Position numbers and translations under genes: made by a program. Positions 4,501-62,697 of a stretch of 64,000 nt of DNA are shown here, one piece after another (the first letter of the stretch is position 1; each line of letters starts with the position of its first letter). The notes under the pieces were generated by a model, which saw only the letters and a list, made by a program, of their open reading frames with translations, was not told the DNA's origin and made no database searches. Source of the DNA: Magnolia sinica (taxonomy: Eukaryota > Streptophyta > Magnoliopsida > Magnoliales > Magnoliaceae); the NCBI RefSeq assembly GCF_029962835.1, contig NC_080582.1, positions 75,140,177-75,204,176 on the forward strand, read 5' to 3'.

Positions 4501-4750
4501 TCATAACACACAATGTAAGATGCATGAGTCACACAATCCAGTGTGCATCAATCCTGAGCATACTGTGCGCTCATGTGAGATAACCTTCGCTTATCAGGGA
4601 GTCTCATAACAACCTGCCCAATGACATATGCAATGGTCAACCACATCTCATAACAAACATGCAGATAATGTGTATGGGCATATATCATGATGCTATGCTG
4701 TCATATACTCACAATCGGTATCAATAATCAACATCAACAATCGGCCTCGA

Positions 4751-42318: not shown

Positions 42319-42451
42319 GTCAAGTCTCCAAAGAGAAAATGTTCACATAACTTTCACATATGAGGGCGTGGAAAAAGGTAGGCAATACCATGAAGTTCAC
42401 CTTGGAATGAAAATTTTGGAAAAACCCACCCAACAGGTGGGCCACACACAT
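42319..42451 (+). repeat. 133 bp direct repeat, left copy
   Basis: It runs from 'gtcaagtctccaaagag' to 'gtgggccacacacat' and recurs at 62,565-62,697 in the same orientation with two mismatches. Sequence outside the 133 bp differs completely at each copy. It borders the CACTA block on its left. Confidence 0.9.
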
Positions 42452-42989
42452 GTTAGAAATGCCGCTAAAGGTACTAAAAATGCCGTTAAAAGATGTAGCA
42501 AGTGCTGCGAAAAGATCAGTGAAACGCCGCTAAAAGCTTTCAAAGACGCCGCTGAAAGTGCCGATAATAGAAATTCTTCTTGATTCTTTACTAATCCTTT
42601 CACACAAATTCCTGTTAATTCTAACTGATCCTTTCTTATATTTGCTGTCCTACAATCAAATCTCCATCAATCTAACTATCAAATTTCTATCTGCATAACT
42701 ATCAAAAACCTATGATTGAATTACCCAATAATCTAACATTCATCAAGACAACAATTAGCACAATATCAACAAAATTACAATTAATGGTCTATTTAAAGTT
42801 TTCAAAACAAACTATAAATGTCTTCCTTTCCTAGCATTTCACATGAACTGTTTCAGTACGGTCCCCTTCTAGACCGATCATGTCTTCCTTTCCTAGCCAC
42901 ATCTTCTGGCAAATGTCTACAACACCAACCTCACTGGCCATGGTCACGTGTCCACTATGTGTGATGTAGGCCCTTTTCTTGCAATGAGC

Positions 42990-43588
42990 CTAAATTCCTC
43001 CCTGGGAAGTTTCCCTGCAATGGGCTGAGAAGCATAGCTGATTCGGTAAGTGGCACAGCATTGAGATTATACTGCTTGGAGCTGTAGAGTGCTGCAGAAC
43101 CAAGTCCTCTATTTGTTGAAGACTTGAACCTTTATAAACAATCAAGCCTATGACAAACAAGAAAATAAAAGGACAATCAGCTTCACAAGTCACCTCTATA
43201 GTTGGGAAAGTGTCACAGTAAAAAAAAATTGTCATTGTATCAATTGGAACTTTTCTTCTCTTTTCTTTCTTTTTTCATTTCCTTTTTTCTTAATGATTTG
43301 CCTTCAATTGGAACTTCAATCACATGAATAAATTGTCATTGTATCAAACTATACGGTGCTACAAGGCTTACAAGCACCACAATACAACCCCTACTCAATT
43401 GCTTGCTGGCAGGTATTGCAAATCATAAGCAACAAAGGAAACAAAAATTGGCCTTGTAAAAGAAAACCAGTAAGAAAAACACACCAAGTATGAAAAATTT
43501 AGAAAGAAAAAGCAAACATAAGTCATCACCTGATATTCTTGAAGTGGATTTCGTTGCTAGTCAAGCATGTACAAGAAGCATCCAAAAC
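42990..43588 (-). other. Exon-like segments of unidentified origin
   Basis: At 43,530-43,588 (minus) a 59 bp segment lies between a good acceptor (TTCAG) and donor (GTGATG). At about 42,995-43,140 (minus) a longer protein-like stretch reads PLTESAMLLSPLQGNFPGRN in one frame. Neither could be assigned to a gene. They may be further captured fragments. Confidence 0.3.
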
Positions 43589-43683
43589 CTGAAGAAATAA
43601 GAAAACTCAACAGTCAGAATGTAGATGATAAATATGATTGATTCAGTTCATTCATATTCGTAAGATTCCATTAATTTACCTTA

Positions 43684-44060
43684 GGGCCCGTTTGGCCGGT
43701 TGAATTGGAAGGGATTGGAAGTTAAATCCCGGGATTGGCCGGGCGTGCCAAACAGAGTCGGTAATCTGATCCCAATCCCATGGATCTTAAGACAATCCAC
43801 TGACAACACCATCATTACCTTTAAATCCCATCCAATCCACCCTAATCCGTTCAAATTTGCCTGGGACATGTTTGGTTCGTGGGATTGGAAGGGATGGGAA
43901 GGTTTAATCCCCGGATTGGCCAGGTGTGCCAAATAGACTGGATATAGCAATCCCATGGAGCTCAAGACAATCCACTGACAACACCATCATTACCTAGAAA
44001 TCCATGCCATCCATCCTAATACCATTCAATCCCTTCCAATCCACCCGGCCAAACGGGCCC
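43684..44060. mobile_element. Tourist-like (PIF/Harbinger) MITE
   Basis: This 377 bp unit has perfect 16 bp terminal inverted repeats GGGCCCGTTTGGCCGG, flanked by the target duplication TTA (43,681-43,683 and 44,061-44,063), the hallmark of the superfamily. The interior consists of two similar halves each holding 'ggattggccgg/aggcgtgccaaa'-type and 'caatccactgacaacaccat' sequence. It has no coding capacity. Confidence 0.9.
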
Positions 44061-44546
44061 TTAGATACTCTAACAAGACCATGATAGAGGTGGTGATAAT
44101 GGACAAGATGGCATTTTCACTCGCACAAGATAGGGTCCTAGATAGGAATTTTGGCAACCAAGAAAAAAAAGATCCTTGAAGCAGACCCTAAGAAGCTAGG
44201 ACAAGATACTTCTCTTCTACCAAGTCTATCCAACAAAGAAAAATAAACAAGGAGCAGCCGGCTGTTTCTAAATGCTAAGTAAATTCCTAACATTTCAATA
44301 GCAAAAGGAAATGAACCAAAATCGCAACTTGCTATGAGAAACTAATGAAAAACAAACAAAAAACAACAATAAGGCCACTGAATCCTAGCTTTTTTAACAT
44401 AAGATGCCTTAAAATGTAACCAAAAGGAAAACAAACACAATCTAATTCGCAGGCAATATCCGACCAAAAATTAGATATAACCAACTCTGCATGGTCCTGC
44501 AACCCCATTTAGAAAAAAAAATCGCAAGGAGAGATGAAATGCCGAC

Positions 44547-44618
44547 CTTCTGCTTCTTGAGCCTTTCATTCTCTTCTTCCAGACGTGAAACCTTGTTCTC
44601 CAGCTTGTTCGTGTATGC
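44547..44618 (-). pseudogene. Captured exon of a group A (ABI5/AREB-type) bZIP factor
   Basis: Exactly 72 bp (24 codons) lie between an acceptor (TGTGGCAG) and a donor (GTCGGC). They read AYTNKLENKVSRLEEENERL and on to KKQK, the start of the leucine zipper of abscisic-acid-related bZIP factors. In that family this stretch is a separate short exon. The DNA-binding basic region that should precede it and the downstream exons are not nearby, so it is an isolated captured exon. Leucines and the heptad pattern are intact. It lies on the same strand as the transposase genes. Confidence 0.8.
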
Positions 44619-44756
44619 CTGCCACAATGAGGAATAAATTCTCAGTCTTAAAAAAAAAGAAAATGGAACTGGTTTTCAAAAATGCAAAGTGCACTACAAT
44701 TTTTAATGGGTGCATGGTTGTATGATGAAATCCATGTTTTTATGTGTGTATATGCA

Positions 44757-44860
44757 TGCATGAATGGATGGAGTATGGATGGATGTATGTATGCTTGCAC
44801 GGATGGATGGATGAGGTGTGTTTGTGAATGTGTGTATGCACGCATCATGATGGATGGATG
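44757..44860. repeat. (ATGG)n-rich microsatellite
   Basis: Imperfect ATGG/TGGA repeats; frames on both strands across it are artefacts. Confidence 0.8.
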
Positions 44861-44869
44861 GATCCACAA

Positions 44870-46064
44870 TTTTCTCCATGTTTCCCTGAGTCAACGATAT
44901 GTGCTTTTAGGCCCCATTAAGGGAAAATTTATTATTCCTAAATATGCAAACATGCATCTGAATATTCAGTTAGAACAAATTCTAGGCTTGTTTTTTGAAA
45001 GGTCAAAAGATATTAGTGCCTAGATGCATGGTGCAAAAATAATTGTCTGACTGGCACTCATTTGATTTGATGCAATAGGGCTGATGATATATTTTGACAA
45101 CTCAAAATGGCTGGAAAAGATCAGGGCCAAATTACCTTGTTAGATCGTGCATGTGCAACAGAAAACTGAGATTGGCCGTTGATGACAAGGAATGAAGAAT
45201 CGCCAATGCAATCCTTGTTCTAAGACAAATAAGAAACTTAAGTATCATGCAGTCCATGCAGATTCACAAACTGTTAAAAGAAAGCCAGCTTTTGGCCATG
45301 TGAAAAGATTTGTAGTCTGTGAGAACTATTTTCATCAACTTCTCATTGTTTTCTATAATCGGAAGAGATACATAGCCTGTGAGAACTATTGTCCTCGCCC
45401 TGTTATCAGCGGAGGGCATGGAAAGCACTAGGATCCCCCATGTCTTATGTAGCACCCCTTTCCAGCAGCCCAATCGAAGGCCGTGAAAGGTGGGAACTGT
45501 AGTTATTGTGGACTTGTAGAAGGTTCTCTTTCTATAGTACAATACATTAGCAAGCAAAATTGTCATGAAGAGTGTTTAAGGTGGAGGTGAGTGATTGAAA
45601 TTAAGCACATGTGCTATTTGAAGTGCTGCATTCCAACCATGATTTGAAGTACCTTAGGGTATTTTTCGAAGTAGAATCTAGTCTTTTGGCCATGTTTGTG
45701 TAGATGGTTACTTGTTATTCATGCAAGACTTGGGCAGATGGTCACCAATGTCGGCTTGTTGTCTTCAACTATAGAATCTAGATCACCTTTCTTGTAAAAT
45801 ATGGCTAATAGGACCGTGAAGTGGTCATTTGTTTTCATATACTCGCTATAGTTGGTGGCCTTTGGCCAGGCTTTTGGTGCAATTTAGGGTCAGGCCTTAG
45901 TTGTAGGATTCATCCATTTCAACTGAAGTTTCCTCTTCAATCCCTGGATTTGTGCTTTCAGCCTGGATTCTTGAAGGAATCATGATTCTCGTTCTAATGA
46001 TTCACATTCCAACTTCTAGGAACTGCTTTTCTTTTCTTTCTTTTTTGGTTTCCTAAATGGGATT

Positions 46065-46113
<49 letters not shown>

Positions 46114-46374
46114 CTTTTCCTTTTGGGTTTCCACACACACACAGTGTGTGTACTTTTTCTTTTCTTTTCTTTTGTTCCCAAATGGGATATGTTGCTATTT
46201 ATATCCTATCATATTTGTGTTAACATTTTGCCTTAAAAAAAGGATCATTCAGTTCACCTTTACTATAAGAATCATATTATCAATTATGCATTTACAATTT
46301 TTTTAAAAGAAAATCTAGCCTTCTATTAGTTAGAGACACAGTGCTATTCATTTTACAATATATTTTTATGATTT

Positions 46375-46409
<35 letters not shown>

Positions 46410-46466
46410 GCAGATGATTCATAGGCACTTTGACCTTCTAACTTCTCAGAAACAGGCAGTTCTTAC
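44870..46466. other. No identifiable gene; microsatellites
   Basis: A (TA)n run sits at about 46,067-46,109 and (CA)n at about 46,377-46,406. Open frames at 45,192-45,566 on both strands do not resemble a known protein. Confidence 0.5.
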
Positions 46467-46554
46467 TCTTTCATACACATATAAGTTTCCATCAGCATGA
46501 GCAACGACAAAAGTGCTTTCACTTTCAGGAACCCATGCGATGTTGGTGCATCGA
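46467..46554 (-). pseudogene. Captured exon of a WDR20-like WD40 protein
   Basis: An 88 bp segment lies between acceptor TTTTCCACAG and donor GTAAGA. It reads RCTNIAWVPESESTFVVAHA and then DGNLYVYER, the conserved WD40 blade wording of the plant homologues of WDR20/CreC. No other exon of the gene was found nearby, so it is an isolated captured exon on the transposase strand. Confidence 0.75.
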
Positions 46555-46599
46555 CTGTGGAAAATAACATTTGTAGCTTTAGGCTAACAAGCACATGAG

Positions 46600-47953
46600 A
46601 TCTTCTATAGGAACAAACAAGCATCAAGTCATCTAAGAAATTGCATATAATAAACAGAACCAACAAGGGATGTGACCATTAACATGTTGAAAGAAGTTAT
46701 AACCTAATACAATATTATAATGCTTGCAATCTGCTTTTCCTTGCCTGGCTATGTAAAGAAGACATTTTATCTTTTAATAACCAAAAGAAGATTCATCTTT
46801 CATTAAAAAAAATAAAAAATCTCTTCTTTTTCTTTTCCTTTCTTTCTTTCTTTTTCCTTTTTTTTCCCCATCTTTTAAAGATAACCAAAGCTTTATAAAG
46901 AGAGAGAAAAGGGTGAGAACAAAACAACATTAAGGGAGAGGCAACAAGGAATCCACGGTGAGTGACCTTCTCACTGCTTCCTCTTTCGAACGAGTATCAG
47001 CAACCTTTTTTGTATCCATTCGAAAATTATTTCTGCAACTACTCCTTGAATGCAGTAACTCACAATGAGAATTAAGCATTGAGATGAAGATGTGCAATGC
47101 ACACACACGCACATGTGAGCATCCATTGTCATCAAATTTCCCCTTCATAGAGAAGGGTTGTATTATTTTTGTGAGGACGTACACTTCAGATGTAAGCAGT
47201 TACTGTTCAAGCATGTCAATACTAATAATGTGAGCTTTTTCTGATGGAAAAACATGTTGAAGAGTCTTTTCCTACTTTTTGTTGATGAGAAAAAGTTTGC
47301 ACATTCTCCTAGTTCCTGTTGATGAAGCAAAGGTGTAGGTTCCATCCCCAACTATTGTCGATGAGAAAATGGTGGATTCCAACAAGCAATCCTTACACTT
47401 TTCCAGAATTTGGATTCTTGGCAGAAGAAACTAGGTGAGCATTGTGAGAGGAACATGAGATTTCCACTTATTACCCAAACAAGAACTCAAAATTGGAATC
47501 CATCTTTCAATAATTCTCTTGAAAATCATCATTAGATGATTATTGTTTTTTTTTTTTTACCTCTTTCGCCTTGGATTTCACATGTCCTTCGTGTAATCCA
47601 TGGAGATGCAAAATCATGTAACCATTTAAAAGTTTGCACCAATGGGTTGGTTTAGTTATCATCTAGTGCATGAAAAGATTTTATTTTTATTTTTTTATAA
47701 TCATTTTAGTGTATACAACCTGGATTCTTGTATACAAAACAGATATTTTTTTTCCATTCAATTAACTGCAGTTTACTACACCGGTTGCATTCTTCAGTTT
47801 GCTGATTCAGTTTTTAACACATCAAAACTGAAAGAAAGATAGGCCCGATAGTTGAGCGCCTCTTTCTTGTGGAACCGAATGCAGTATAGTACAAGTATAT
47901 TCTGGAACTATCTTATAAAACCCATGTTAAGGAAGTATGTTTGACAGATGAAG
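46600..47953. other. No identifiable gene
   Basis: T-rich and A-rich tracts around 46,800-46,870. The open frames at 46,930-47,351 (minus) have no recognisable domain. Confidence 0.45.
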
Positions 47954-47999
47954 CTACCAAGCAATAATTTCAAAAAGGGAGCAGCCACAATTTACACCC

Positions 48000-48120
48000 A
48001 CCTTTGTCACTAGCATACAGTCAATGTTTCCATTTGGGAATTGAAATAGTACAAAAGCATAATATTTCAGCTTTTTGTGTCCAATGCACCTCACAACTTT
48101 CTGTGACCAGCTGTGGTCCT
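48000..48120 (-). other. Exon-like segment, unidentified
   Basis: On the minus strand a protein-like stretch KVVRCIGHKKLKYYAFVLFQ and FPNGNIDCMLVTK runs from an acceptor-like GTCACAG to a donor-like GTGGGT. Its regular codon use suggests a real exon, but I do not recognise the gene. Confidence 0.35.
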
Positions 48121-48699
48121 TCATTATGGTGTAGAGAACACACAAAATAGTCACTTAAATACATCCAGACAAATCACAGTAGCACTTCTCCAACATTCAA
48201 ATTTTTCAAAACTGAATTGGAAAAAAGAGAATCAAAGTAAACTAAATCAGATTTGAAAGTTGGTCAAATCATAAATAGGCGTATTATGGACGGAGACATT
48301 GTTTTCATTAATAGGCCACCTAGTACTCATAAACATTCATTACAATCATTTTCTATCTATGTGCATGATGACCATACTGTTAAGATCAATCCTCTTATTT
48401 GTGCTCCCCTAGGTGCGGATTTTGATGGGGATTGTGTTCATATATTTTATCCATAGTCTCTACTAGCAAAGGCAGAAGTTTTGGAGCTGTTTAGTGTTGA
48501 AAAGCAAATCTGTGGTTCTCATAGTGGTAGTCTGAATTTACAACTGGTGCATGATTCTTTATTGTCACTGAAACTCATGTTTAGGACTTTTTTCTTGAAC
48601 AAAGCGACTGCGCAACAATTGGCTATGTGTTTCACCAGTTTTACCAGAACTTGCTTTGCTTAAGGCTCACCATACAGGTCCTCTGTGGACTGTTTTACA

Positions 48700-49130
48700 A
48701 ATAGTACATAGTAGACAAGGAATGGCCCACTACAACCAATAGCCAAGATCAAAATAGGTAGCCACAAGCACTCTGGTGCAACCACTGCATAGACAACTGC
48801 CATGAATGAAACCATCAGCACCAGGCATGCAATGATCGTAAGCCGATGGCCCCACATAAGCACATCACGTAAAACTCATGTGATGACCCCATGCCCAGAT
48901 GAAGCAGACAACGACGATAAGTGAGCAATATAATGTGATTGTATTTGAGAACAAGAAAGCTTTGAATGAACAATGCTTCACGAGGATTGCAGCCCCTTGG
49001 TTTGGGTTGTCATTCTTGTACCCACCTGGCATTGTGAATGCGGTAGTAAAGGTGATAGTGGTGATGAGTGCAGCCACTAATGTGCATGTGCTGACCCTAG
49101 CTTTGTAGCGCTCGTTTCAGTCAGCCACGT
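48700..49130 (-). pseudogene. Fragment of an ankyrin-repeat/PGG-domain membrane protein
   Basis: The minus strand reads YKARVST, then VAALITTITFTTAFTMPGGY with NPNQGAAILV: the PGG domain of ACD6/ITN1-type proteins. After one frame shift near 48,865 it continues WGHRLTIIACLVLMVSFMAV and IGCSGPFLVYYVL, the last membrane segments. The ankyrin repeats are absent. It lies antisense between the two NRPE1 segments, with a junction at about 48,705, so it is an insertion into, or fusion with, that fragment. Confidence 0.8.
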
Positions 49131-49633
49131 CCATGGATCGCACCATGATATCTCAAGTATTTCAAGATGAGCAGCTGTGTGAGAGGAAGTGTTAGTTGGT
49201 ATCCTAATCCATAGGATTAGAAGGCTGGTAATCTGCCCAGACCTGATTTATTAGGTGGTTTGATAGACCCACCATCATCATCTTAGCTCCTCTCGGACAT
49301 AGTTCCAAAACTCGATGACTTGACTAGGCATCTGACCTAGTGAACTCGACTCAGCTGCATTCTAGGTTGAGTTGTCCTGTAAATTTGTACTTTTTACTGG
49401 ACTGTACTGGACTTGGGTGTTCACTTGGATAGCAAGGATCTCAACCATTGGACAATAGCACTTCAGCTATCTATTTTAGATATTTTATATTAGGGAAATT
49501 CTCCAGTGCTCTCAGAGCATTATAAGTTACAGTTCTCCTAGTCTCATCTATCCATTTGAACAGTTCAATCCATCAATCTGAACTGCCTAGTCCAGAACAT
49601 GATGGACTACCATGCGAAAAACACACTGATTGA
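49131..49633. other. Spacer between NRPE1 segments
   Basis: It includes 'actcgactcagctgcattct' near 49,345 and a 'ttataagttacagttctcct' stretch near 49,520. No coding similarity is seen. It may be NRPE1 intron mixed with other insertions. Confidence 0.4.
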
Positions 49634-50799
49634 ATGATCCAGGACATATCACCTTTGCTGCTTCACTTGAGATCAAATTACAATGAACTTGTAGAGTTGC
49701 AAGTGGAAAGCTACCTGAAAACTGTAAAACTGCCTATCGTGACTCGTATTCTAAAGTTATCTGCTTTGGGTAATTTGATAGATTCTAAAAATGATTCAGC
49801 TATCAGTAAGGTTGTTCAACAACTTGGCTTTTTGGGGCTTCAACTTTATGACCGAGGGAAGTTTTATTCAAGGCGTTTGGTTGAGGATATGAGTTTCCAC
49901 TTCCAAAATAAGTATTCTGTTAATGGTGTTGACTATCCTTCTGAGGCATTTGGGTTAGTTAAGAGCTCCTTTTTTCAAGGTCTGACCCCCTATGAAGAGT
50001 TGGTCCATTCCATATCATCCAGGGAAGTGTTGATCCGTTCTTCCAGAGGACTTACTGAACCAGGAACTTTGTTTAAAAATCTAATGGCCACACTTAGAGA
50101 TGTCGTTATCTGTTATGATGGGACAGTGAGAAACCTCTGCAGCAATTGTATAATTCAATTTGAGTATGGACAGGTGGACGAAAATAGTCCTGGAAGTTCT
50201 CTTGCTGGTGAACCGGTTGGTGTATTAGCTGCTACTGCAGCATCAAATCCTGCATATAAAGCAGTTCTTGATTCTTCTCAGAGCAACAACTCTTCATGGG
50301 AATAGATGAAGGAAATACTTTTGTGCAAAGTTAACTTCAAGAAGAATCAGTAGGCCATTTACAGCATTTCCTGGTTCGATAAGTCCTGCATAGTTTCTAA
50401 CACACCCTGGAACCTACATTTCATGAATAGTTTCTAACATCTTACATCAGAAAGTCATTCAAGCTACATTTGGCTCATGAGCATTTCACAGGCATAGAAA
50501 AACAAATTTATGACTTTGGAATTTCTACTCTTAGGCTCTTAGTAGGTTTCTGTAAATTATGAAATATGAAGAAAAATCTCTTTAGTGGCAACCAAATGTA
50601 CTCTAAACTAATAACCATTAAAGCAGAATAAAATTATATATACACAAATACAAATAGGCATTATAAAATGATCAACAGAAGAAACATCATGTCATGTTCT
50701 GCCCACCAATGGTATAAGTGTGGCCTGCCTTTTAGTAACATGTTGACTACCAAGCTTTGGCAAAAAGTAAGGAAAACTAATTCAAGATAGAGAACTCAC

Positions 50800-50889
50800 A
50801 GTTTTGAACTTCTCCATGTTTGTCTCAAGACAACTCTCTAATTCTGACATTTTCCCAGTGCCATAGCTATTCGCCAAGTCAACGTAAGG
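50800..50889 (-). pseudogene. CSN3: Captured exon of COP9 signalosome subunit 3 (CSN3)
   Basis: A 90 bp segment (30 codons) lies between acceptor CATGGCAG and donor GTGAGT. It reads PYVDLANSYGTGKMSELESC and ETNMEKFKT, matching the CSN3 region just before the PCI domain (SYSTGKISDLE in Arabidopsis, by memory). The exon that should follow, with NLGLVKQ, is not found, so this is a lone captured exon. The COP9 signalosome removes NEDD8 from cullin ligases; no function is implied for the fragment. Confidence 0.75.
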
Positions 50890-51089
50890 CTGCCATGAAG
50901 AAACATTTTATGAGTGTATTAAACTTAAACTTAATTGAATACTATCACAAAAGACATAAAATGGAAGAAAATGACACAACTCACCTTGACGCCCTTTTCC
51001 CTCCTCCTTTACCCGGGCTTGGGACCGGCAATGCAAGAAGTTGCATTGGCGGAGTTAAAAAAGGGCTTAAGCTCCATTTGGTTTGAGAA

Positions 51090-51593
51090 AAAATTATATT
51101 CATAAAGATTGATGTGATGACCAAATGGAGCCTAAGACTTATATGCAAATTTACTAAAAGGTATGATAGGAACTCTTACCCTACAAATATGATGACTAAG
51201 TGACCACATGTAAAAAAAAAAAAAAAAAAAAAAAAAAGAAAAAGAAAAAGAAAAAGAAAAGAAACAGAAGAGATTAAATTAAAGACATGCAAATGCAAAA
51301 TTCAAATCACAAATCATAATCTTATAAAACTAAGATTAAATTAAAGAGATTAGATGAGTTTAGATGTGCCCTCTATAATTAAACTAAGATAAAAATAAAC
51401 TGTTTAGATGTGTCTAACTCAATCCAAAAGTCTGAAACCACAGATCCCTACTACCCCCACTTACAAAAGATGTTTACAGTTCCAAATACTTAATAAAAAC
51501 TTCTCTCATGTAGTCATCATCCATTTCTGTCTGCAACCTATAAAAAATAACAAAAATAAATCAATTACTATTCACAATCTCATACAATAAGTT
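51090..51593. other. No gene; A-rich tract
   Basis: A long A-run at about 51,212-51,260 and AT-rich sequence downstream of the second transposase gene. Confidence 0.5.
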
Positions 51594-53847
51594 CTATTGC
51601 TTAAAAAATAATAATAATAAAATAAAAAATAAAAAATAAAAACTTACCATACATAAAGTAGTGGGCCAAGCAATACTCGTTCCAATTGCATCCCCAATTG
51701 TTTTATATCGTCCATGGGTCCTTATCAAATCCTCATCACGTACCATTGCCACTTGAACAGATACTTCCCAGAAACCAACTCCAAGTTTTTGCCCCCCTAC
51801 TTTTGTCAATGGATCCGTGCTCAAAACGGTTCCTTTAGCTACAGTATCCCCAGGCCTTACAATACTCTTAAGAAGAACTTGAGTCACATTAGTGCAACTC
51901 GTAGAATTCCCCTTATTCGCCAAGTCTCTCTACAAATGATAAATCAATGTCAATTCTTGTATACAGCTCGAACTATGTATAATTGAAAACATATTACACA
52001 TAAAAATATACATGTATATATTATAATTACCTGAGGGGTTGGAACCAAGTGGCTTGATGATGAGGAGGGTTGGTTCAAGTTGGGATTAGCTGAAACACCT
52101 AATAATGTAGCTAGATTAATGCTTGGATTCGTTATGGCAGCCATAAATGTTGTCATAGTTTCTCTTAGTGAAGATATTTGAGCATCTCTTTCAGCCATAG
52201 TTTCTCTTAGGGAAGATATTTCAGCATGCAATTCCTCATATTGCTCATCTCTCTTCTGAGCATTGGAGGTCATCCCTTGGGACTGGACACTGTGGGATGT
52301 TGTGCCCCATATATCAGAAGGAGAGGGACCTAACCCGTAAGCGCGGGCACGGCCATGTCGTTCGTCACCCATGACTTCTGAGAATATATCTTTCCCCGCA
52401 GTGCTGTTCTGTGAAGCCTCTGGCTGCTACGAAGTTCGTTCATTTAATTGTTCCTACAATTAAAAATCACCAATTTAGATTTTATAGTGCTAAAAGATTA
52501 AACAAAATAAGAAGATACATATACATACCATTGCTCTTGCTGAGGCCTCATCCACAGGCATCCCATTCTTGCGTTTATGTGTCAACAAGAACATATCTAC
52601 TCGGGTCAAATCCTCCCCATTGGCTCTCTTCTTTCTCTATCATTATTTAAATAAGTTATACATGAGAAATAGATTGACATCAAATTATTAGGTGATTAAT
52701 ATAAAAATTACCTCTTCTTCACGTATTCGCGCAAAGCTCTTCGTGCCTGTAGTGTGGCTAATGCGTTGTTTTCTCCGATTTTCCGTATTTATCTTATTAC
52801 GGACCTAAAATGTGACACATCAACCGAGTAATTTATCAAATTTCAGCTTAAGACAATTGTGTAATTTCATAACATGAAGGTTTTAGTAACTACTCATCAC
52901 ATACTTTTCCCTCTTCAGAGTTCCAAAACTCAATGAGGGCCTTCCACTGATCCATTTGGACATGCTCATTGAGGTCTGCTAGCCGCGCCTCATCATTATC
53001 ATGAGGTGAGTAGTGGAATTTCTTCAGTTCACACTTTCAATCCCTCCATTTTTTTTCCAATCGACATCAACACCCAAGATTTAATCTCTTTGTCAAACTG
53101 AAACTTGGACTACATCACATAAACAAAGTAGACAATCACATATTGAATAAAGAATAAATAATCAAATACATAAAATACATAAAACAAATCACCATTACCA
53201 TGGCAAGTTCGTACATATCATCCTTCTTCTCGTTTGGCACTACCCTCCAATTAGAATATGTAAGGGGTGCGTAATCCTCATTACGTGCTATTGTCCCCAA
53301 AACGTTTGTCAGCTTGCTAGCATTTCATTAACAGGTTGCCCTAGATTGTTGGTGGTAATAAAAATGTGTTGCCCTTCACGCATGTTCCAAACTTGATGGC
53401 ATCGTGTGGGGCCTCGACTCCTTCTCTTCGTGAACAACAAATCTGTTGAAAAAAATGCACATAAATAATATGCAGACTTGTATAGTTCATTAGCAAAAAA
53501 TACATTAAATTTTTAAGGATATTAGAACCAATGCATAACATACCACTAGAAGTATCCTCTAATGAATCAACTGTCTGGTGTGGATCCTGAGGCAAACTCT
53601 GGGAGAGACCCGCCGTAGGCAGGGGAAGCTGGGGATGAGAAGGACCCGCTGTAGACTCGGGCAACAAAGGCTGGACTGGACCCGATGTAGCCGGGGAAGG
53701 CTGATGCTGGGAGGGACCCGCTATAGGCTGGGGCAACTGAGGCTGAGAGGGACCCACATGAGTCTCGGGTAGCTGAGGCTGATTGATGCCACCAGTCATA
53801 AGGCTTATCGGTAGCCTAGTCATGCGTTTAGAACGAGCACGTTTCAT
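51594..53847 (-). pseudogene. CACTA second transposase gene (Transposase_24/TNPA-like)
   Basis: Several exons are visible on the minus strand. The N-terminal part (53,847-53,545) has imperfect proline-rich repeats of about 14 residues (GPSQPQLPQPIA). The core (about 53,440-53,100) reads SRGPTRCHQVWNMREGQHIF, NNLGQPVNEM and YAPLTYSNWRVVPNEKKDD. A basic stretch at 52,800-52,710 reads NRRKQRISHTTGTKSFARIR. A coiled coil at 52,240-52,140 (ISSLRETMAERDAQISSLRE) follows, then the C-terminal block (51,923-51,640) with DTVAKGTVLSTDP and IGDAIGTSIAWPT. This is the plant Ptta/En/Spm (PF03004-type) gene that accompanies TNP2. At least one stop and one frame change in the core show it is decayed. Confidence 0.8.
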
Positions 53848-53992
53848 GTCTTAAGAAGAACCTGAGTCACATTAGTGAACAGATGCATGTTGATAAGACG
53901 ATTCAATTTTGAATAAATAAATAACAGAACCATATGAAAAAAGACATTTTAATTTCTATTTCATACATTAGGAAAACATGGTACTTAAGAAA

Positions 53993-56900
53993 TCAATTAT
54001 TGTACAAAATGTCGTCTCCAATGGGATCAGATAACTCAGTATCATCTATTTGTTCTTCTACCATCAGCTGGGTAGGTAGTAAATATGTGACAATTGTTGT
54101 ATCATCGACATCTGTCCTTTCCCAGCTAATAGTGTCATCACTCGGGTCCTCCAAACATTGATCATCGCAGGGCGACATGCCTAAGAATGTATCAACATCA
54201 TCTGCAGACTCTTGCCCATGCATCTCAAATAAGTCTCTAGGTTTCGTCCTCACTACAACATGCCAATCCTTCTCGATGAGGTCTTGTACGTAAAACACCT
54301 GCTCAGCTTGAGATGCAAACACAAATGGTTCATCAGACAAATGTTGACCTGTATGGCATAATCGTTTCAAATTCACAAGCGTGAACCCCAACCCATCCTT
54401 CTTAACACCCCTGCCTTGAGATCGAACATCAACCCAATCACACCTAAATAATACAACCTTCCGAGTACCACAATATTCCAGTTCTATGATGTCCGTCAAT
54501 ACACCATAGTATGTTACGTCTCCTGCAATAGGATTTCTATCATTGACACTTGCAAAGCTTGATGTCATTGTAGTCACAACAACTCCACTATGTTGAGTTT
54601 TTCTTTTTTTCTCAAAATCTTTGGTGTGAAATCTGAAGTCGTTTACAATAAAACCCTTATATCTTCTTGCCATACTAGGACCCCGAGGTAGCCATCTAAG
54701 GTCTTCTGAAACCTGCTCATTCCTTTCATGGCGCAACTGTTCAACCTATTCAGATACCGAAAATATTCATTCAAAAGCTCATGTTTGAATAATAATTTTT
54801 TTTTATATAAAAAAAGCATGCACATGTCCTTAAACTTATCAAATCGACTACTTATACGATCACTAAACCATTTATAAAATGTATCATTGTGAATGCGTTC
54901 TATGTCCCTTGGCCGTGCGCAACGATTCATCCGCTTAACAACATTCATATGTTCTCCGTAAAAGTCATTAGTTTTAGCAATTTTTTTATTTTTTTTTAAA
55001 GAGTAAATTTATCTATGCATAAATTAAGTCCTATAGTTGGCTTACTCAAGAAATGGGCTGAGTTCATGGCAGGACATTTCGATGTGCCTGTGCAGATGTA
55101 ATGTTATCCAGTACACAATCCTCAGACTTCCCTAATGCACAACCTACTAGTGGGAAAATAGAGGATTGTTCTTCTATAACAGTGTTGGCATAGTCATCAT
55201 TCCGTATTGGCTGATTGAACCTTGTCTCTATACCATGCAGGTACCTCGAGCAGAATGTTAAGCATTCTTCTGCCAAGTACCCTTCCGCAATTGATCCCTC
55301 GGGCCGACTTCTATTACGCACATATGACTTTAATGTGAGTAGATATCTGTGATCACCAATATTAAAAAGTTTAAAAATATATGCTCGATTAGCATGACTA
55401 GCATAGAATGGCAAATAATTTTAATTTCTAAACATTAACACGCACCTCTCAATGGGGTACATCCATCGATATTGTACCGGTCCAGCTATTTTTGCCTCAC
55501 CCGCTAAATGAATGGTCAAATGCACCATAATATCAAAAAAAAAAACTGGTGGAAAGATCTTTTCTAAATGACAAAGTGTTAACACAATTTGAGATTCCAA
55601 TCAGTTAAAGTCTCTTACTTGACCAACTTTGGAACATAATTCTCTAAAGAATCCGCTCAATTCAAGTAAGACTGAGGTTATGTTCTTAGGTAATGTTGTT
55701 CGTATCGCAATTAGAAGTAGTTGCTACATCATAATATGACAGTCGTGGCTCTTGAGTCCTGAAATTTTATGCTCTTTCAGATGCACACAACGTGAAATAT
55801 TAGCTGTATAACCATCTGGAACTTTCACCCGCTTTAAGATTTTACAAAAATCATCCTTCTCACTTGGTGACATAGTAAAGCATGCGGGTGGCAAATATGT
55901 CTTGTTAAATGAAAGTTGTTTTGGGTTTAATGTTTGTCTTATACCCATATCTTGTAGGTCAAGACGTGCCTTTACACTATCCTTTGTTTTCCCTACAATA
56001 TTCAACAGCATCGCAAGCACATTGTCACATACATTCTTTTCAATATGCATCACGTCCAAATTATAACGCAATAGATTATGCTCCCACTATGGCAAATCAA
56101 AGAAAATGCTCTTCTTTTTACAGTTATATCTTTCTTCCTCATTGTCTTCTCGTCTTCTCTTATGCCCATGACTGCCTACAGTCTTCCCAAAGGTGACATT
56201 AATTCCCTGCAACTGGGCCAACACATCAGAACCAAATAATGGAGTTGGCGCCTCGCCAAATTCTTCCGTGCCATCAAAGGATCTGCTATCAGTTCTAAAC
56301 TTATGATCATGTTCTAAAAATCGACGATGACCCATATAACAAAACTTTCGACCATGTTTTAACCATTTAGACGAAGTGTCCTTATTACAACAAGGACAAG
56401 CGAGACGTCCTTTAGTGCTCCATCCAGACAAGTTTGCATATGCAGGGAAGTCATTGATAATCCACAACAATGACGCACGTAATCGAAATGTCTCATTGCT
56501 TGAGGCATCATAAGTGTCTGCACCAACCTCCCACAATTCCTTTAACTCATCTATCAAAGGTTGCATATACACATCAATGTCATTACTGCGTCCATAAGGG
56601 CCAGGAATAAGTAAGGACAATATGAGATTAGGTTGCTTCATACACATCCATGGTGGTAAGTTATATGGTATCAAAATAATAGGCCATGTGCTGTGAGCAA
56701 TACTCATTGTCCTGAATAGATTGAAACCGTCAGCTGCTAACCCAAGTCTAACATTATGACCGTCCGAAGAAAAGCTTGGATGGTTGTGGTCAAAAGTTTT
56801 TCACGCTGGGGAATCAGTAGGATGCCTTAATGTTCCATCGTCTTTGCATCCTACTTCATCCCATTTCATAGAGGAAGCTGTTTTTGATGACATAAACAAC

Positions 56901-57890
56901 CTTTGAAGCCTTGGTTTCAAGGGAAAATGACGCAATATCTTAGCTGAAATTTTTTTATCCTATGCAGATGAAGAAGATCCCTCACCATTTGACTAATGTT
57001 CAGCCATTTTCCATCTGGAAGTACCACATATAGTACATGATTGCTCATTGATGGCCTCCTTCCAGTACAACATACAATCATTGGGACATGCATCAATTTT
57101 GTTATATTTGAGGCCTAACTCCCCAATAATCTTCTTGGTTTCATAGAAAGACTTTGACAACATTTCACCCTCGGGAAGAGCCTCCTTCAACAATTCAAGT
57201 AACATGGTGAATGATTTATCACTCCATCCACCAAGGCACTTTATGTGATATAGTTTCATAACGAAAGAAAGCTTAGTGAATTTCTTACATCCCGGGTACA
57301 ATTCCTGATCAGCATCTTCTACCAATTTGAAAAATTGTTGTGCTTCAGTATTCTGCCCATGTGTAGGTCCATATGATGTGTGGCTTGCATCACTCTCTTC
57401 ACCATTTAGATTTGAAATACCGAACACATCATGTAACAATCCGTGCATATCATCGTGTGGATCTGGATTATCGCCTACGACATTTGTGGTAGCAGGCATG
57501 GAAGAAGACGTAACCTCCCCATGGAAACGCCAGTAGGTGTAACTTGTATTAAATCCGTCACACACGATATGATCATATGCTACTTCTCGAGACACCCAGA
57601 AGTTATTGTTACAGTTCTCACATGGACATCGGATCCTCCCTCTATTACTTGCATTTGCAAATGCAAAATCTGTAAATTTCGCAGCTCCATTTAAGTATGC
57701 GTCGCTGACCCTAAATCAGACAATAAAATTAGAGGATATGTCAAAAGAACGCATCTTGACCACTAAGCCACAACAACTAAGATGAGAAGTTTCTAAATGG
57801 ATACCTTGGCAGATGAATCCAACTCTTATCCATAAGTATCTTCCTTAACCACTCAGACGGGTAAGTGAAAATACATTCTGGGTCTGACAA
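53993..57890 (-). pseudogene. CACTA TNP2-like transposase, decayed
   Basis: The minus-strand domain order is the standard one. Transposase-associated domain at 57,890-57,500 (MDKSWIHLPR, an intron, then FTDFAFANASNRGRIRCPC). TNP2/Transposase_21 at about 57,300-56,090 (LYPGCKKFTKLSFVMKLYHI, PYNLPPWMCMKQPN, RLACPCCNKDTSSKWLKHG). DUF4218 region at 56,071-55,064 (DVMHIEKNVCDNVLAMLLNI, AGPVQYRWMYPIER, YLAEECLTFCSRYL). DUF4216 at 54,736-53,993 (YYGVLTDIIELEYCGTRKVV, FASQAEQVFYVQD). At least four in-frame stops lie between about 57.0 and 55.7 kb, including one right after WKMAEH, so no functional enzyme is made. The N-terminal exon boundaries and the DUF4216 part remain open. It defines the block as CACTA. 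Confidence 0.9.
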
Positions 57891-57899
57891 AGCTTCCTA

Positions 57900-58513
57900 A
57901 TATAATTTAAACAAGCCCCATTATCATCCGTTCATTTAGCAAAGGAAGCCAAGTTACAATAATAACATGTCCCCCTAAAAAGACATCCCATCACCTCTTC
58001 AATCTACACAGAATGGTTTTAGCCAAGATATATTAAGTAACCCTAGCCAAAATAACTGGAGAAATGTTTAATCTGCACAACTAAAAGTACTGAGAACACA
58101 AGTACCTCTCTTGTTGAATTACTTCAAGAACGCCATAACCAAGATAAGTCTTGCACACCAGTGGAATGTTTCTTGGAAGAATTTTACTCCACTACCATTA
58201 TATGAGCATCAAAAATCACAAAAGGCAAACATTTCTACAGAAATCCACCCAATAGTGAAAATTGATGTCCTGAAACCAAAAATGGATCAAACCATAAAAA
58301 CCAAAGCATAGACTCCAAAGGTCTTTGTAAATTTCCTCATCTATTGCATAAACAACACTAAATGATAGTTCCAAGTATGAGATCTTTGTAAATTTTCTCA
58401 TTGTAAATGATAGTTCCAGGTAGGCCATACAATCCATGGTCAGGTGTTCTCCCAAGCTAGCAATCCCAAGAGGGAAAAAAAATAGCTTAAAACTAGGAAT
58501 AAGAAAAAATTAC
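57900..58513. other. No identifiable gene
   Basis: AT-rich sequence upstream of the TNP2 start. Open frames at 58,111-58,455 on both strands are not protein-like. A short near-repeat of 'agatctttgtaaattt' occurs at 58,320-58,400. Confidence 0.45.
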
Positions 58514-58587
58514 CTTAATGTAAGTGAGGGGCCTCGGCCTTTATGATACCATGTGCAATAGGAGGTAAGAATGTCAAGTGCAAATAC
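58514..58587 (-). other. Exon-like segment, unidentified
   Basis: A 74 bp segment lies between acceptor CTCAG and donor GTAATT on the minus strand. One frame reads HLTFLPPIAHGIIKAEAP. The gene was not recognised; a captured exon is likely because of the intact splice signals and its neighbours. Confidence 0.35.
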
Positions 58588-58875
58588 CTGAGCAAAGCAT
58601 ATAAAGAGAAAATAGCTTAGTTATAGGCATAGATACTACTACATTGATGTTTTTGAACATGTCATTCTAAGCCAAAAAAAATAAAAATGAAAAACATAGA
58701 TTTGCTAAGCCACACGTGTGTGTAGTAAAGCTCATGTACAAGTGTCAGCATGGCACAATTGGTACAAGACCCAATCCATTATATTACAGGAGGAAATGGA
58801 GAGAAATCACAAATCATCATCATCAGGTAATGTTAATGATTTTATTTTTTTCACTGAAAGGTTACAACAAACCCA

Positions 58876-59129
58876 CTCTTACGAATTTTTTTCCAAGCTT
58901 CTTTGAAGCCTCGCTCAGTTTAACACTTGAAACAATAAGCCATGCATCATGTGGAGTTATAAAACAAAATTAGAAACTTCTAGCAAACAAAGGGATTCCA
59001 TCAAACTTTTGAACTAAAAATGAAAAAGAATTGCAGTGGACAATGGACATTGCTCACCAAAGAGTTCAAGGCCTTTCACAATTGTGACACATTTGTGTTT
59101 ATTTCGAACAACCTTTTCGATGACAACTT
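58876..59129 (-). pseudogene. Two captured exons of density-regulated protein (DENR)
   Basis: Exon 59,058-59,129 reads VVIEKVVRNKHKCVTIVKGL and ELFG, the start of the SUI1 domain of DENR, and ends at donor GTGAGC. The next exon (about 58,876-58,922) reads VKLSEASKKLGKKF and ends at donor GTAAGA. Both are in the right order on the minus strand, separated by a short intron of about 135 bp. The N-terminal zinc part and the rest of SUI1 are missing. DENR works with MCT-1 in translation re-initiation; this piece is a non-functional capture. Confidence 0.75.
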
Positions 59130-59139
59130 CTTGTCTCTC

Positions 59140-60388
59140 TTACACAAACATAGGCATTTCAATGAAGAACAAAAACTGATGGAACATTAATAACTCAAAT
59201 ATGAATGACTGGAGTATTAGTCTCGATATAAAATGATGAAAACTCAACAATTGCGAAGTTGGCAATGGCAAAAGAAAGATTGATAGCATGAAGTCATCAT
59301 ATAGAATCATAACCCCAACAAGTTCATGTCGCTATCTAGTTTTGAATAGTATTTTTGTTCTGCAATAAAAAGTCATTCCTAAACATGAATAAACAAATGC
59401 ACATCACAAATCAATTAACCGTTAAAACTATAAATCCAGAATGTTCAAATGAGTTAATCATAGAACAAAACTACTCAAACAACCATGAAGCTATATAATC
59501 AATTAACTGCTGAGTAGCAGCAAAACAAAAATTAGCTACCAATATTGCTCTGAAACTGACTGATTAACACTTAAATCATAGAACAAAACTACTCAAACCG
59601 CTGAGTAGCAGCAAAACAAATCAGTACCTTACAGTTCATTCCATGCTTCTAAGCATCCCATGCTAACCAAGTTCATTCAAGCCATAGATCAAACCCTCTT
59701 CTAGCATATTGGATGTCCCTTGGTTGGAGGAACTGAGCAGGCATCATTTGTTTCCACCCTAATTATCCATCCATTTACATTTTCAAGTCCTATTGAAAAG
59801 GAACCTCGAAACAGAGGCGAACATGTAATGTTTCCTATTTCTCTCAATGCCTCGAACAATGGGCAGCTGATGATTAGTATCCATCTCCTGAATCAGTACT
59901 GCAAGTGTTCTGCAGGCCTCAGGGTACATCCAAATAGAAACTTGCATTATTAAATAAAAAAGAGAGAAAAAGAAAAGAAACGTAATACCTCAACCTACAT
60001 CACAAACATGTGGTTTGCTATCATGTGTTTAACAAACCAACAAGCATCGCTTATTCCAATGAACTGTAACAAGTTGAAACAACACATGAAAAAAAAAATA
60101 AAATTTACTATCTTTCCCAACAGTAAGAAGGAACTAAAGAATATAGAACATTTACTCAATAATATTTACACTAACACCAAAAAAGACATGCATCCAATTG
60201 CAATCGCCAATAACAACAAAACTTGGTCACCAAGTCACATCTTGCTGATCAAGAAGCATGAAAATATATCAAAACAAAAACAGAGCAAAGTGATCTGTCA
60301 TTTTGAAAAGACTAGTGAACCAAGCATTCATCCATACCGTATGTCCCAAAACATAGCAGGAATAAATAAGGGTGGAAGAAAACCATAC
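59140..60388. other. No identifiable gene
   Basis: AT-rich sequence with a duplicated phrase 'aatcatagaacaaaactact' at 59,456 and 59,575. The frame at 59,720-59,953 has no recognised domain. Confidence 0.45.
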
Positions 60389-60468
60389 CTCTATGACTTC
60401 ATCAACAACTTCAAGGTCTAAATTCCCGGGTACAAAACCTGCTCCAATACCTTGAATCTTATGTGGAC
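60389..60468 (-). pseudogene. Captured exon of cysteine synthase (O-acetylserine lyase)
   Basis: An 80 bp exon lies between acceptor CACTCAG and donor GTATGG. It reads [20 protein letters not shown] and VDEVIE, the conserved [11 protein letters not shown] region around the pyridoxal-phosphate phosphate-binding side of the enzyme. It follows, in gene order, the exon at 61,368-61,505. The enzyme makes cysteine from O-acetylserine and sulfide; upstream catalytic exons are missing here. Confidence 0.8.
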
Positions 60469-60984
60469 CTGAGTGATTGTGATGACACAACTTAGAAAGA
60501 AAGAAAGCACAAATGCATAAACCACCTAAAAGCATGATTATCTGAGGAGAAAACATCCAAACAGTCATCTTTGCTTTTACCAGGCTTTCCTTGTGAAAGT
60601 ACATTGCTTTCCAAAGGATCCGCGGCAATAATTTGGAACATCACCGTGTATGCGTGAAATAAAGAAAGGGCTAAATATACGAAACTCCATGACCCAACAA
60701 TCCAGAACTAAAATATCCAGTAATTTACAAAGTGATTTTAGGCAAAAAGTTGTGTTGCAACTGGTTAGGACAGCTCTTGCCAGCCCATAGACCCAGCCCC
60801 CTAAAGGCCGGACAAGTTCGCAAGCCTGTCCTAGTACTTGCCAAACGGGCCAGAAAGGCCTCGATCAAGCCTTGCAACATTGGAATGAGTCGTCATATGA
60901 TACCCTTATGTTAGGATTTTTCCCCCATTCAGAAAATGACCAAATATAAGATTTTTATTTTATTTTATTTTATTTTATTTTTTA

Positions 60985-61060
60985 TTTAGAAAATGAACAA
61001 ACATCAGAATAGTTCCACCAGTTACATTCCCCACAACAAATATATCTGTCTTGCTGCTTG
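60985..61060 (-). pseudogene. Second, degraded copy of a cysteine synthase exon
   Basis: The minus strand reads DIFVVGNVTGGTI, a variant of the cysteine synthase motif [13 protein letters not shown] found intact but for one change at 61,368-61,505. It is probably a tandem duplicate. A shared filler sequence ('cctaaaggcc...gacaagtt') flanks both copies at about 60,800 and 61,215. Confidence 0.6.
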
Positions 61061-61367
61061 TATATTTGTGTTTGGATGCCACCTGCAATCATTGGTTTGG
61101 GACTCAATCGATGATTTAGGTAACAAATAGGAGAGACCCCAAAAACAAATCCAATTGGTTTTTGAGGAAACGAACATTGCAGGTATTCAAGACAGTCAAC
61201 AATGCGTCCAAGGACCCTAAAGGCCTGACAAGTTGGCCCAGCCTGTCCTGTTTGGACATTCATGTAATTGGCCTGGAAAGGCCTCAAACCAACTCAGCTC
61301 ATGGTGGGCCAGCCCTGGAATCGTTCCTAAAGCCACTCCGACCATAAAATACATCATCATATTATAC

Positions 61368-61505
61368 CTTTATGTTAGGATTTTTGTCTTTCAGAAAATA
61401 GCCAACGCCAGAAATAGTTTCACCAGTTCCAATGCCTGCAACAAACATATCCACCTTGCCACATGTATCTTCCCAGATTTCCGGACCAGTTGTTTCATAG
61501 TGTAT
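61368..61505 (-). pseudogene. Captured exon of cysteine synthase
   Basis: A 138 bp exon lies between acceptor TGTGCAG and donor GTATAA. It reads [39 protein letters not shown] and NPNIK. The glycine-rich GIGTGGT loop that holds the cofactor phosphate carries GIGTGET here (G to E), so even the fragment would not be functional. A third partial duplicate of the TTGPEIWED segment lies at about 61,515-61,560. Confidence 0.85.
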
Positions 61506-61935
61506 CTGCACCAAACCATGAACACTATATCTTCCTAGATTTCCAGACCAGTTGTCTTTATAACATTGACTTGGTCGCTGATCCCAATTGAGAAAGGTGG
61601 TCTCAAGTCCAATTGATAGCACGGTTTCATCCAAAAAAGGATTTGGCTAAAGCATTTCATCAAACAAGTAGCGTGTTGTCCCTGCCCATGTGGAGAGTGT
61701 TGTCCCTGTCCATATAAAAATTAATTGAATAATTTACAGAACTATAAATGCAACATTTCAGCATTCAGGAGGTTTGCTAGTTCCACACATGTGGAGAGTG
61801 CTGTCCCTGTCCATCCACACTCAGCCACACGTGTGCTTGATCAGATTTTTCCACCATGTATGACATGTATGCAATTTCTAAGTGCTTGCGTATCATCCAT
61901 CACACTCTGCAAGACATTTCATACATTTTGAAACC

Positions 61936-61937
<2 letters not shown>

Positions 61938-61976
<39 letters not shown>
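61938..61976. repeat. (GA)n microsatellite
   Basis: A pure GA run; the open frames crossing it encode only Arg-Glu repeats. Confidence 0.9.
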
Positions 61977-61979
<3 letters not shown>

Positions 61980-62138
61980 CATACTGCTGCGGCTGTTGGA
62001 GAAGAGGAGCTACTGCTGCGGCTGTTTCTGGTGCTTCTTCCTCTTGCGGGCCTTCTCGCCGGGCAATGGCCGAGAGATAAGCATCTTCAACAAGCAATGG
62101 AAATGGAAGCCATATCAAGAGAGACCGGAGTGGAAAAG

Positions 62139-62152
62139 GGAGATCGAGAGAC

Positions 62153-62195
<43 letters not shown>

Positions 62196-62350
62196 TCAGT
62201 CGGTTGGTGGACTAAAAGAGGGAGATCGAGAGACGTTGGAGAGAGAGAGAGACTTTCAGTCGGTTGGTGGACTAAAAGAGGGAGATCGAGAGACGTTGGA
62301 GAGAGAGAGAGAGAGAGAGAGACTTTCAGTCGGTTATTGTGGACTAAAAG
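62139..62350. repeat. Tandem repeat of about 60-81 bp, three units
   Basis: The unit 'gggagatcgagagacgttgg' + (GA)n + 'gactttcagtcggttggtgg' + 'actaaaaga' occurs at 62,139, 62,220 and 62,280. The units differ mainly in GA length and are otherwise almost identical. It lies near the right edge of the CACTA block. Confidence 0.85.
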
Positions 62351-62564
62351 AGGCGCGATTTGGGAGAGGAGGGAAGAAGGGTTTTAGGAGAGAAATGGCG
62401 CGCGCGATCGATTTGGGGATGGGGCGATTTGGGGAAGTGGGGGAAAAAGCCCTCTTTTTTTTAATTTCAGAATTCAGCGGCGCTGGCTTTTCTATACACT
62501 GGCGGCCACGTAAAAACGCCACTGATTTTACATGTACACTGGCGGTTTGTTGTAGCCGCCACTG
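62351..62564. other. GC-rich stretch and CACTA-type subterminal motifs
   Basis: 62,370-62,460 is rich in 'gcgcgcgatcgatttgggga'-type sequence. 62,495-62,564 has alternating TGGCGG and CCGCCA motifs in both orientations, the style of CACTA subterminal arrays. The block ends where the 133 bp repeat begins. Confidence 0.5.
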
Positions 62565-62697
62565 GTCAAGTCTCCAAAGAGAAAATGTTCACATAACTTT
62601 CACATATGAGGGCGTGGAAAAAGGCAGGCAATACCATGAAGTTCACCTTGGAATGAAAATTTTGGAAAAACCCACCCATCAGGTGGGCCACACACAT
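62565..62697 (+). repeat. 133 bp direct repeat, right copy
   Basis: It matches 42,319-42,451 at 131 of 133 positions, same orientation. Sequence after it ('atactaaatcaaaccattag') is unrelated to that after the left copy. Confidence 0.9.

Follow-up and report, generated by a model that had tools for sequence, protein, structure and literature searches.

A block of about 20 kb in the genome of Magnolia sinica, at positions 42451-62567 of the 64,000-nucleotide stretch analysed here (the window, C10:75140177-75204176; genome of 1.84 Gb in 127 contigs), is a single unit, namely one copy of a large CACTA (En/Spm-type) transposon family that carries pieces of unrelated host genes. The best explanation, to which we give as a whole a probability of roughly 0.83, is that the window copy is an immobile, end-trimmed member of this multi-gene-fragment family. 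The limits of the block are those of the stretch common to the window and other copies, and the original prediction, which had placed them at 42452-62564, was right within 3 bases. Genome searches scored top candidates only, so that all copy numbers given below are lower bounds; most family copies were assessed via match tables, while eight copies besides the window (W) were fetched and are designated E1 to E8. Comparisons with Pfam and PDB were made on frame reads, the PDB plus frames being covered up to 57461.

The CACTA nature of the family is apparent in its genes as well as in its ends, and in this respect the earlier reading of the block as CACTA-derived holds. The window combines, on the minus strand, the tnp2-type and TnpA-like transposase domains of the CACTA superfamily: a tnp2 transposase (54254-57712; Transpos_assoc at 57515-57712, Transposase_21 at 56207-56839 with a Pfam E value of 8.5e-93, DUF4218 from 55639, and DUF4216 at 54254-54487), a Transposase_23 domain (TNP1/En/Spm; 51684-51878, Pfam 1.9e-13), and a Transposase_24 domain in two pieces (Ptta/En/Spm; 52319-52636, Pfam 0.052 and 1.2e-8). 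These Pfam matches confirm the TNP2-like and Transposase_24-like genes that had been proposed from the letters. The family termini, taken from the fetched copies, are CACTACAAGAAA ... TTTCTTGTAGTG; a CACTA/CACTG-type terminal inverted repeat stands at both ends of E1, E2, E3, E6, E7, and E8, the left terminus of E5 has one base changed, and E4 is without a left end. Matching 3-bp target duplications flank five of the seven two-ended copies (E1 CAT, E3 TCA, E5 ACA, E6 ACA, and E8 TTA); E2 and E7 have no perfect match, and E4 is unscorable. Furthermore, many short GCCGCTAAA-like subterminal units occur near the left end (eight copies, by eye). Genome searches yielded 41 matches for the left edge of the block (40 of 354 candidates scored) and 61 for the right edge (40 of 175); by our own reading, 13 left ends besides that of the window pair with an equally oriented right end at a distance of about 10 to 52 kb on their contig. 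The transposase region is present in the window, E1, E2, E3, and E6 and absent from E4, E5, E7, and E8. We assign the family to CACTA and regard the window copy as derived from it rather than as an intact member. Over the tnp2 region (54451-57450), the window differs by 4.9-5.3% from E1, E2, E3, and E6, which differ by 2.4-3.1% among themselves; positions 52051-52650 behave likewise (4.2% versus 1.3-2.0%), and the adjoining parts on each side differ by 1.5-3.2%.

Seven host pieces lie within the block, six of them read in the direction of the transposase genes and one, NRPE1, in the opposite direction. The original prediction had named all seven, and the names stand to different degrees: strongly for NRPE1, the PGG-domain piece, and cysteine/cyanoalanine synthase, moderately for bZIP, DENR/SUI1, and WDR20 (one short exon each), and weakly for CSN3 (E 0.18). 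The piece of NRPE1, the largest subunit of RNA polymerase V (Pol V), lies on the plus strand in two parts (48248-48712 and 49632-50343, with a spliced junction between 50311 and 50312); two PDB matches of the piece to Pol V subunit 1 have E values of 1.1e-78 and 1e-55. Inside it, on the minus strand like the remaining five, sits the ankyrin/PGG piece (48892-49113, Pfam 1.9e-22). The cysteine/cyanoalanine synthase piece (60358-61527, PDB 1.4e-18) comprises two exons and intron sequence. The bZIP (leucine zipper) exon (44547-44621) retains its AG/GT splice sites and matches Pfam bZIP_1 at 5.5e-4 on 25 residues; DENR/SUI1 (58865-59139) has two exons, the second recognised by eye only, with an intron-like gap in which a GT donor is retained, and matches Pfam at 1.2e-4 on 28 residues. 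Both of these scores are below Pfam's own cut-off. The WDR20-like exon (46464-46583, PDB WDR20 1.2e-3) and the CSN3-like exon (50785-50892) retain their splice sites as well. For CSN3, the best PDB match is subunit 3 of the COP9 signalosome, at E 0.18 only and complemented by reading by eye; the minus-frame PDB scans gave no CSN3 match at E <=0.1.

Other copies of the family hold the same pieces together, and the claim that the fragments move together was borne out by the genome search with the block's edges. Indeed, the C6 copy (E2) contains each of the seven pieces, with WDR20 over 92% of its length, and the C18 copy (E3) contains seven of seven, two of them partial (WDR20 57%, PGG 51%). These two copies are 89-98% identical to the block apart from about 1.6 and 2.6 kb, and because both carry all seven pieces, the set travels together. 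E1, E4, E5, E6, E7, and E8 hold subsets. Features common to copies are mostly 89-99% identical, and the identity of the right subterminal region ranges from 76% (E8) to 96% (E3). A history in which separate nested insertions accumulated by chance, one gene piece with each, would agree with the position of PGG inside the NRPE1 piece and with the absence of individual pieces from some members; it is nevertheless extremely improbable, since unlinked copies have the same set in the same order together with CACTA ends, E1 and E3 also having matching target duplications. Separate nested insertions, which the original prediction had named as the outcome that would speak against it, are not observed when the set is taken together, even though PGG does sit within NRPE1.

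Examination of the genome for donors and further copies yielded likely host sources for some of the pieces. All counts include the window, and most of the counted places are known from matches alone. The NRPE1 piece is 99% identical to a fetched locus at C7:95746610, where the gene continues on both sides of the captured part and which is likely the host donor. The cysteine synthase piece, found at 15 of 32 candidates, is 91-93% identical to a fetched, gene-like C3 locus, likely its donor; the alignment runs through intron sequence, and 269 bp of the C3 intron are absent from the window. The PGG piece has 14 long and two short places plus nine on C1 (25 candidates), the window stretch that resembles the C1 places extending over about 48713-49300, and these nine are likely the host loci. 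WDR20 occurs at 93-100% in 22 of 25 places; of the others, two are 81-82% alike (C6:60984334 and C3:31944909, candidates that may be host genes) and one covers 42 bases. DENR is 95-100% alike at 20 of 27 places, with host candidates at C12:22377416, C12:6374369, and elsewhere, known from matches alone. The bZIP exon was covered at all 40 scored places, 34 of which extend over almost the whole of a 401-base query, and no donor was found among these 40 of 762 candidates. As for CSN3, the locus at C3:66109689 (L049) was rejected as donor, as it contains the same CSN3 bit beside frames that look by eye like the reverse transcriptase of a long interspersed element; no donor gene was found after this check.

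The NRPE1 piece differs from the cysteine synthase piece in its structure. At the C7 gene, the exon ending in ...GATGAAG is followed by an intron that begins with GT, ends with AG, and measures about 128 bp (in the alignment, 125 bp stay unaligned and 3 bases overlap), after which the gene resumes with an exon beginning GAAATACTTTT. These exons are joined directly in all seven alignable copies (W, E1, E2, E3, E4, E6, and E8, the letters being viewed for W and E8); E5 and E7 are without the junction part. Moreover, a 121-base junction query had an unbroken match at every one of the 40 places scored from 76 candidates; the gene was outside these 40. E8 parts from the C7 gene sequence precisely at the following GT without a change of frame, and the residues past this GT read by eye as the next NRPE1 exon. 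Judged by these junctions, the NRPE1 piece is spliced, i.e. intronless. We counted 77 places with this piece, window and gene included (138 matches merged within 3 kb, four matches at 40-41% that resemble other polymerase genes being excluded). Over the aligned positions of the 669-bp piece, the majority sequence drawn from 24 copies departs from that of the gene at two, and the capture is therefore not much older than the spread. The left breakpoint of NRPE1 is identical in W and E8, so that it was captured once. The approximately 180 bp just before NRPE1 (48066-48247 in the window, 4415-4596 in E8) are also common to both and have no match to the NRPE1 gene locus.

Two routes may have brought a spliced sequence into the family. 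Host complementary DNA (cDNA) is carried by long terminal repeat (LTR) elements, and NRPE1 might first have spread as a processed copy made by a retroelement, then have been captured by the CACTA element from genomic DNA. The lack of introns and the known cargo of LTR elements fit such a history, as does the finding that no more than 27 of the 77 places are situated within 10 kb of a listed family left end (40 of 354 candidates scored). On the other hand, the same 27 places indicate that much of the NRPE1 spread occurred inside the CACTA family, and the left breakpoint is common to W and E8, so that we hold this history for possible and the less probable of the two. In our preferred explanation, the NRPE1 piece would come from spliced mRNA copied to DNA, whereas the cysteine synthase piece would come from genomic DNA, intron sequence included. 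For bZIP, WDR20, CSN3, and DENR, a genomic origin is suggested too, because splice sites are kept (the GT donor for DENR). Most likely, the pieces would have entered through repair of breaks inside the element, with other DNA or cDNA used as filler.

The fetched copies also give an indication of the order of events. The central part of NRPE1 is present in E8 and missing from the window, which has PGG in its place; E8 is without PGG. It follows that NRPE1 came first and PGG later. The family therefore looks like a stepwise collector of host pieces, in line with the collector envisaged in the original prediction, as other members contain further modules. Ancestors of the family would thus have gained host pieces one by one, and the assembled element would then have spread as one unit through ordinary CACTA transposition.

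Many NRPE1 copies, E8-like and duplication-bearing ones among them, lie within long open frames of 300-680 amino acids, as one would expect if the piece were retained as a protein-coding gene of the transposon. This is very improbable in view of the private changes of the copies, for which the gene and 19 NRPE1 copies were fetched. In 24 copies, 79 nonsynonymous, 23 synonymous, and three stop changes were counted, close to the neutral expectation of 72.4, 27.6, and 5.1, which was derived from the spectrum of these changes themselves, and the NRPE1 region of E8 is spread over shifted frames. The test was run in three groups, C61:124826 and E4 (partial exon) being excluded. Protein-level selection on the piece was accordingly rejected, and by this codon pattern the NRPE1 piece drifts neutrally, which leaves RNA as the sole means by which it might act. 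Pairwise dN/dS (the ratio of nonsynonymous to synonymous divergence) against the gene is 0.3-0.9 in most copies, a comparison that includes changes common to several copies. C61:124826 has no nonsynonymous and three synonymous changes relative to the gene, with an 18-bp deletion. A 42-bp unit (query residues 85-98) is repeated in frame, three times in C9:88687816, C3:122983538, and C6:94690557 and twice in C8:34806703; these four copies have no exon stop relative to the gene.

The window copy differs from the other members at its two edges. The original prediction had taken one pair of edge motifs for the ends of the element; they are instead truncation points, and the window copy has neither CACTA terminus. 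On the left, the subterminal region is truncated (42451-42900), most other copies extending about 350-400 bp further beyond 42451; on the right, the subterminal region (62352-62567) ends 32 bp before the CACTA terminus found in other copies beyond 62567. The block is flanked by a 133-bp direct repeat (42319-42451 and 62565-62697, 98% identical), the inner borders of which are flush with both truncation points. The repeat had no further match among the scored candidates (40 of 175), and it stands at the window copy in place of a CACTA-type 3-bp target duplication, which was not found there. Together with the absent termini, the flanking repeat suggests that the window copy entered the genome via double-strand-break repair. 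To judge from its anatomy, the most likely course is that a trimmed element was ligated into a break whose staggered ends spanned about 133 nucleotides, so that the target was duplicated and no CACTA ends remained. In rice, patch-mediated double-strand-break repair is described, in the portion of the report available, with tandem duplications enriched among events of 50-200 bp (PMC7971508). Such repair accounts for an insertion flanked by a direct repeat; the rice events presented there are duplications of the target itself, whereas here 20 kb of ectopic DNA are inserted. Alternatively, the window copy could have been inserted by transposase and have lost both ends later, the 133-bp repeat being a pre-existing tandem pair. 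Transposition with 3-bp duplications is indeed seen in the family, and a left end has been lost in E4, but two independent deletions would have had to stop exactly at the inner borders of a repeat that is unmatched elsewhere among scored candidates, and we regard this course of events as unlikely.

Several points weigh against the explanation as a whole. The copy that holds all seven pieces (nearly) whole, E2, is one of the two without a perfect 3-bp duplication, the other being E7. Likely donors are at hand for just three of the seven pieces (NRPE1, cysteine synthase, and PGG), and the C1 places taken for the source of PGG are 75-92% alike and known from matches alone. The evidence for the name CSN3 is weak. 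NRPE1 might have existed in spliced form as an independent retrocopy prior to its uptake by the CACTA element. The single-copy state of the 133 bp before the insertion is presumed, and the window copy is, to judge from its divergence in the transposase region, partly mosaic.

Multi-gene capture by CACTA elements is already known. The soybean element Tgm-Express1 (Zabala and Vodkin 2007) is described with five gene pieces in 5.7 kb and with chimeric RNAs (PMC1947982, as far as its text was available). Like the Magnolia family, it is a CACTA element with several unrelated host pieces, comprising exons, introns, and usable splice sites and including a cysteine synthase piece; the Magnolia element differs in its approximately 20 kb, its transposase genes, and its about seven pieces, one of them spliced. 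Maize Pack-CACTA elements hold many loci (PMC8903248, in part), and they share with the present family CACTA ends and DNA of several genic loci. Host coding DNA between the element ends, which defines Pack-TYPE elements, is found here as well; these are, however, described in the accessible parts of that report and of a review (PMC13317346) as non-autonomous, without a transposase of their own, whereas the Magnolia family possesses both tnp2 and Transposase_24 genes. Chenopodium CACTA elements resemble it in bearing transposase genes with host pieces outside the coding genes, but single genes per element (Neprosin, AP2) are presented in the text available (PMC8978399), against seven here. Regarding the route, repair of breaks in mouse zygotes is reported to capture reverse-transcribed spliced mRNA (PMC4516963, from the accessible portion), so that spliced mRNA sequence is usable as break filler; those breaks were experimental and in an animal, and here a plant DNA transposon is concerned. 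Among titles and abstract openings, with subscription journals thinly covered, we found no report of a CACTA element with a host piece lacking introns, or of a transposon containing NRPE1. As far as the literature was searched, it is new that one unit combines so many pieces with transposase genes, and that captures of both kinds, unspliced and spliced, occur side by side, a subunit of a silencing polymerase among them. These data suggest that one cut-and-paste family can assemble unlinked host pieces from genomic DNA and from spliced RNA and still be mobile as a unit. How CACTA elements capture genes becomes testable, because filler derived from spliced mRNA needs either cDNA break repair or an earlier retrocopy.

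Pol V, of which NRPE1 is the largest subunit, directs the silencing of transposons. The NRPE1 piece stands opposite to the transposase genes in the window and in the four fetched transposase-bearing copies. Read-through from a transposase promoter would yield antisense NRPE1 RNA and could turn small RNAs against the host silencer, a scenario that we consider very improbable. If it were true, any selection would act on the RNA of NRPE1 and not on the protein, which is consistent with the neutral codon pattern. According to the 'epigenetic conflict' idea, as set out in the available part of PMC8978399, capturing important genes may favour a transposon; the NRPE1 piece makes this idea testable on the silencing machinery itself.

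Some members contain further modules, one of 3.4-4.4 kb common to E1, E4, and E5 and one of 3.0 kb common to E1, E4, E5, and E6. In E5, the 4.4-kb version of the former (L040:5419-9838; also in E1 and E4) has a weak Pfam match to CWZF3-5-7 THD, from a CW-type zinc finger protein (E 0.0015), and this zinc-finger-like module is possibly an eighth captured gene. A Pfam scan of the 3.0-kb module of E5 gave no match, and that of the extra piece of E7 gave nothing better than E 0.08.

Finally, the block contains a complete type-P1 twister ribozyme on the minus strand (50995-51061; 75.5 bits, gathering cut-off 67.2), some 530 bp downstream from where the Transposase_23 open frame stops and on the same strand. 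The ribozyme has two changes each in E1, E2, and E3 and none in E6. In plants, hammerhead and twister are the sole ribozymes reported according to the portion of PMC10226581 available, twister mainly in rice, and a twister in a peach circular RNA is reported in PMC12542633 (accessible part). A genome search gave 62 scored candidates, of which 57 pass the cut-off (82,502 loose candidates), and twisters also occur at C1:28099783, C1:30552034, and C18:48165864 (loci L071-L073). The core of about 87 bp is shared with L071 and L072, which are otherwise unlike the window and 92% identical to each other over 1.1 kb, and the ribozyme is therefore present in at least two repeat types.

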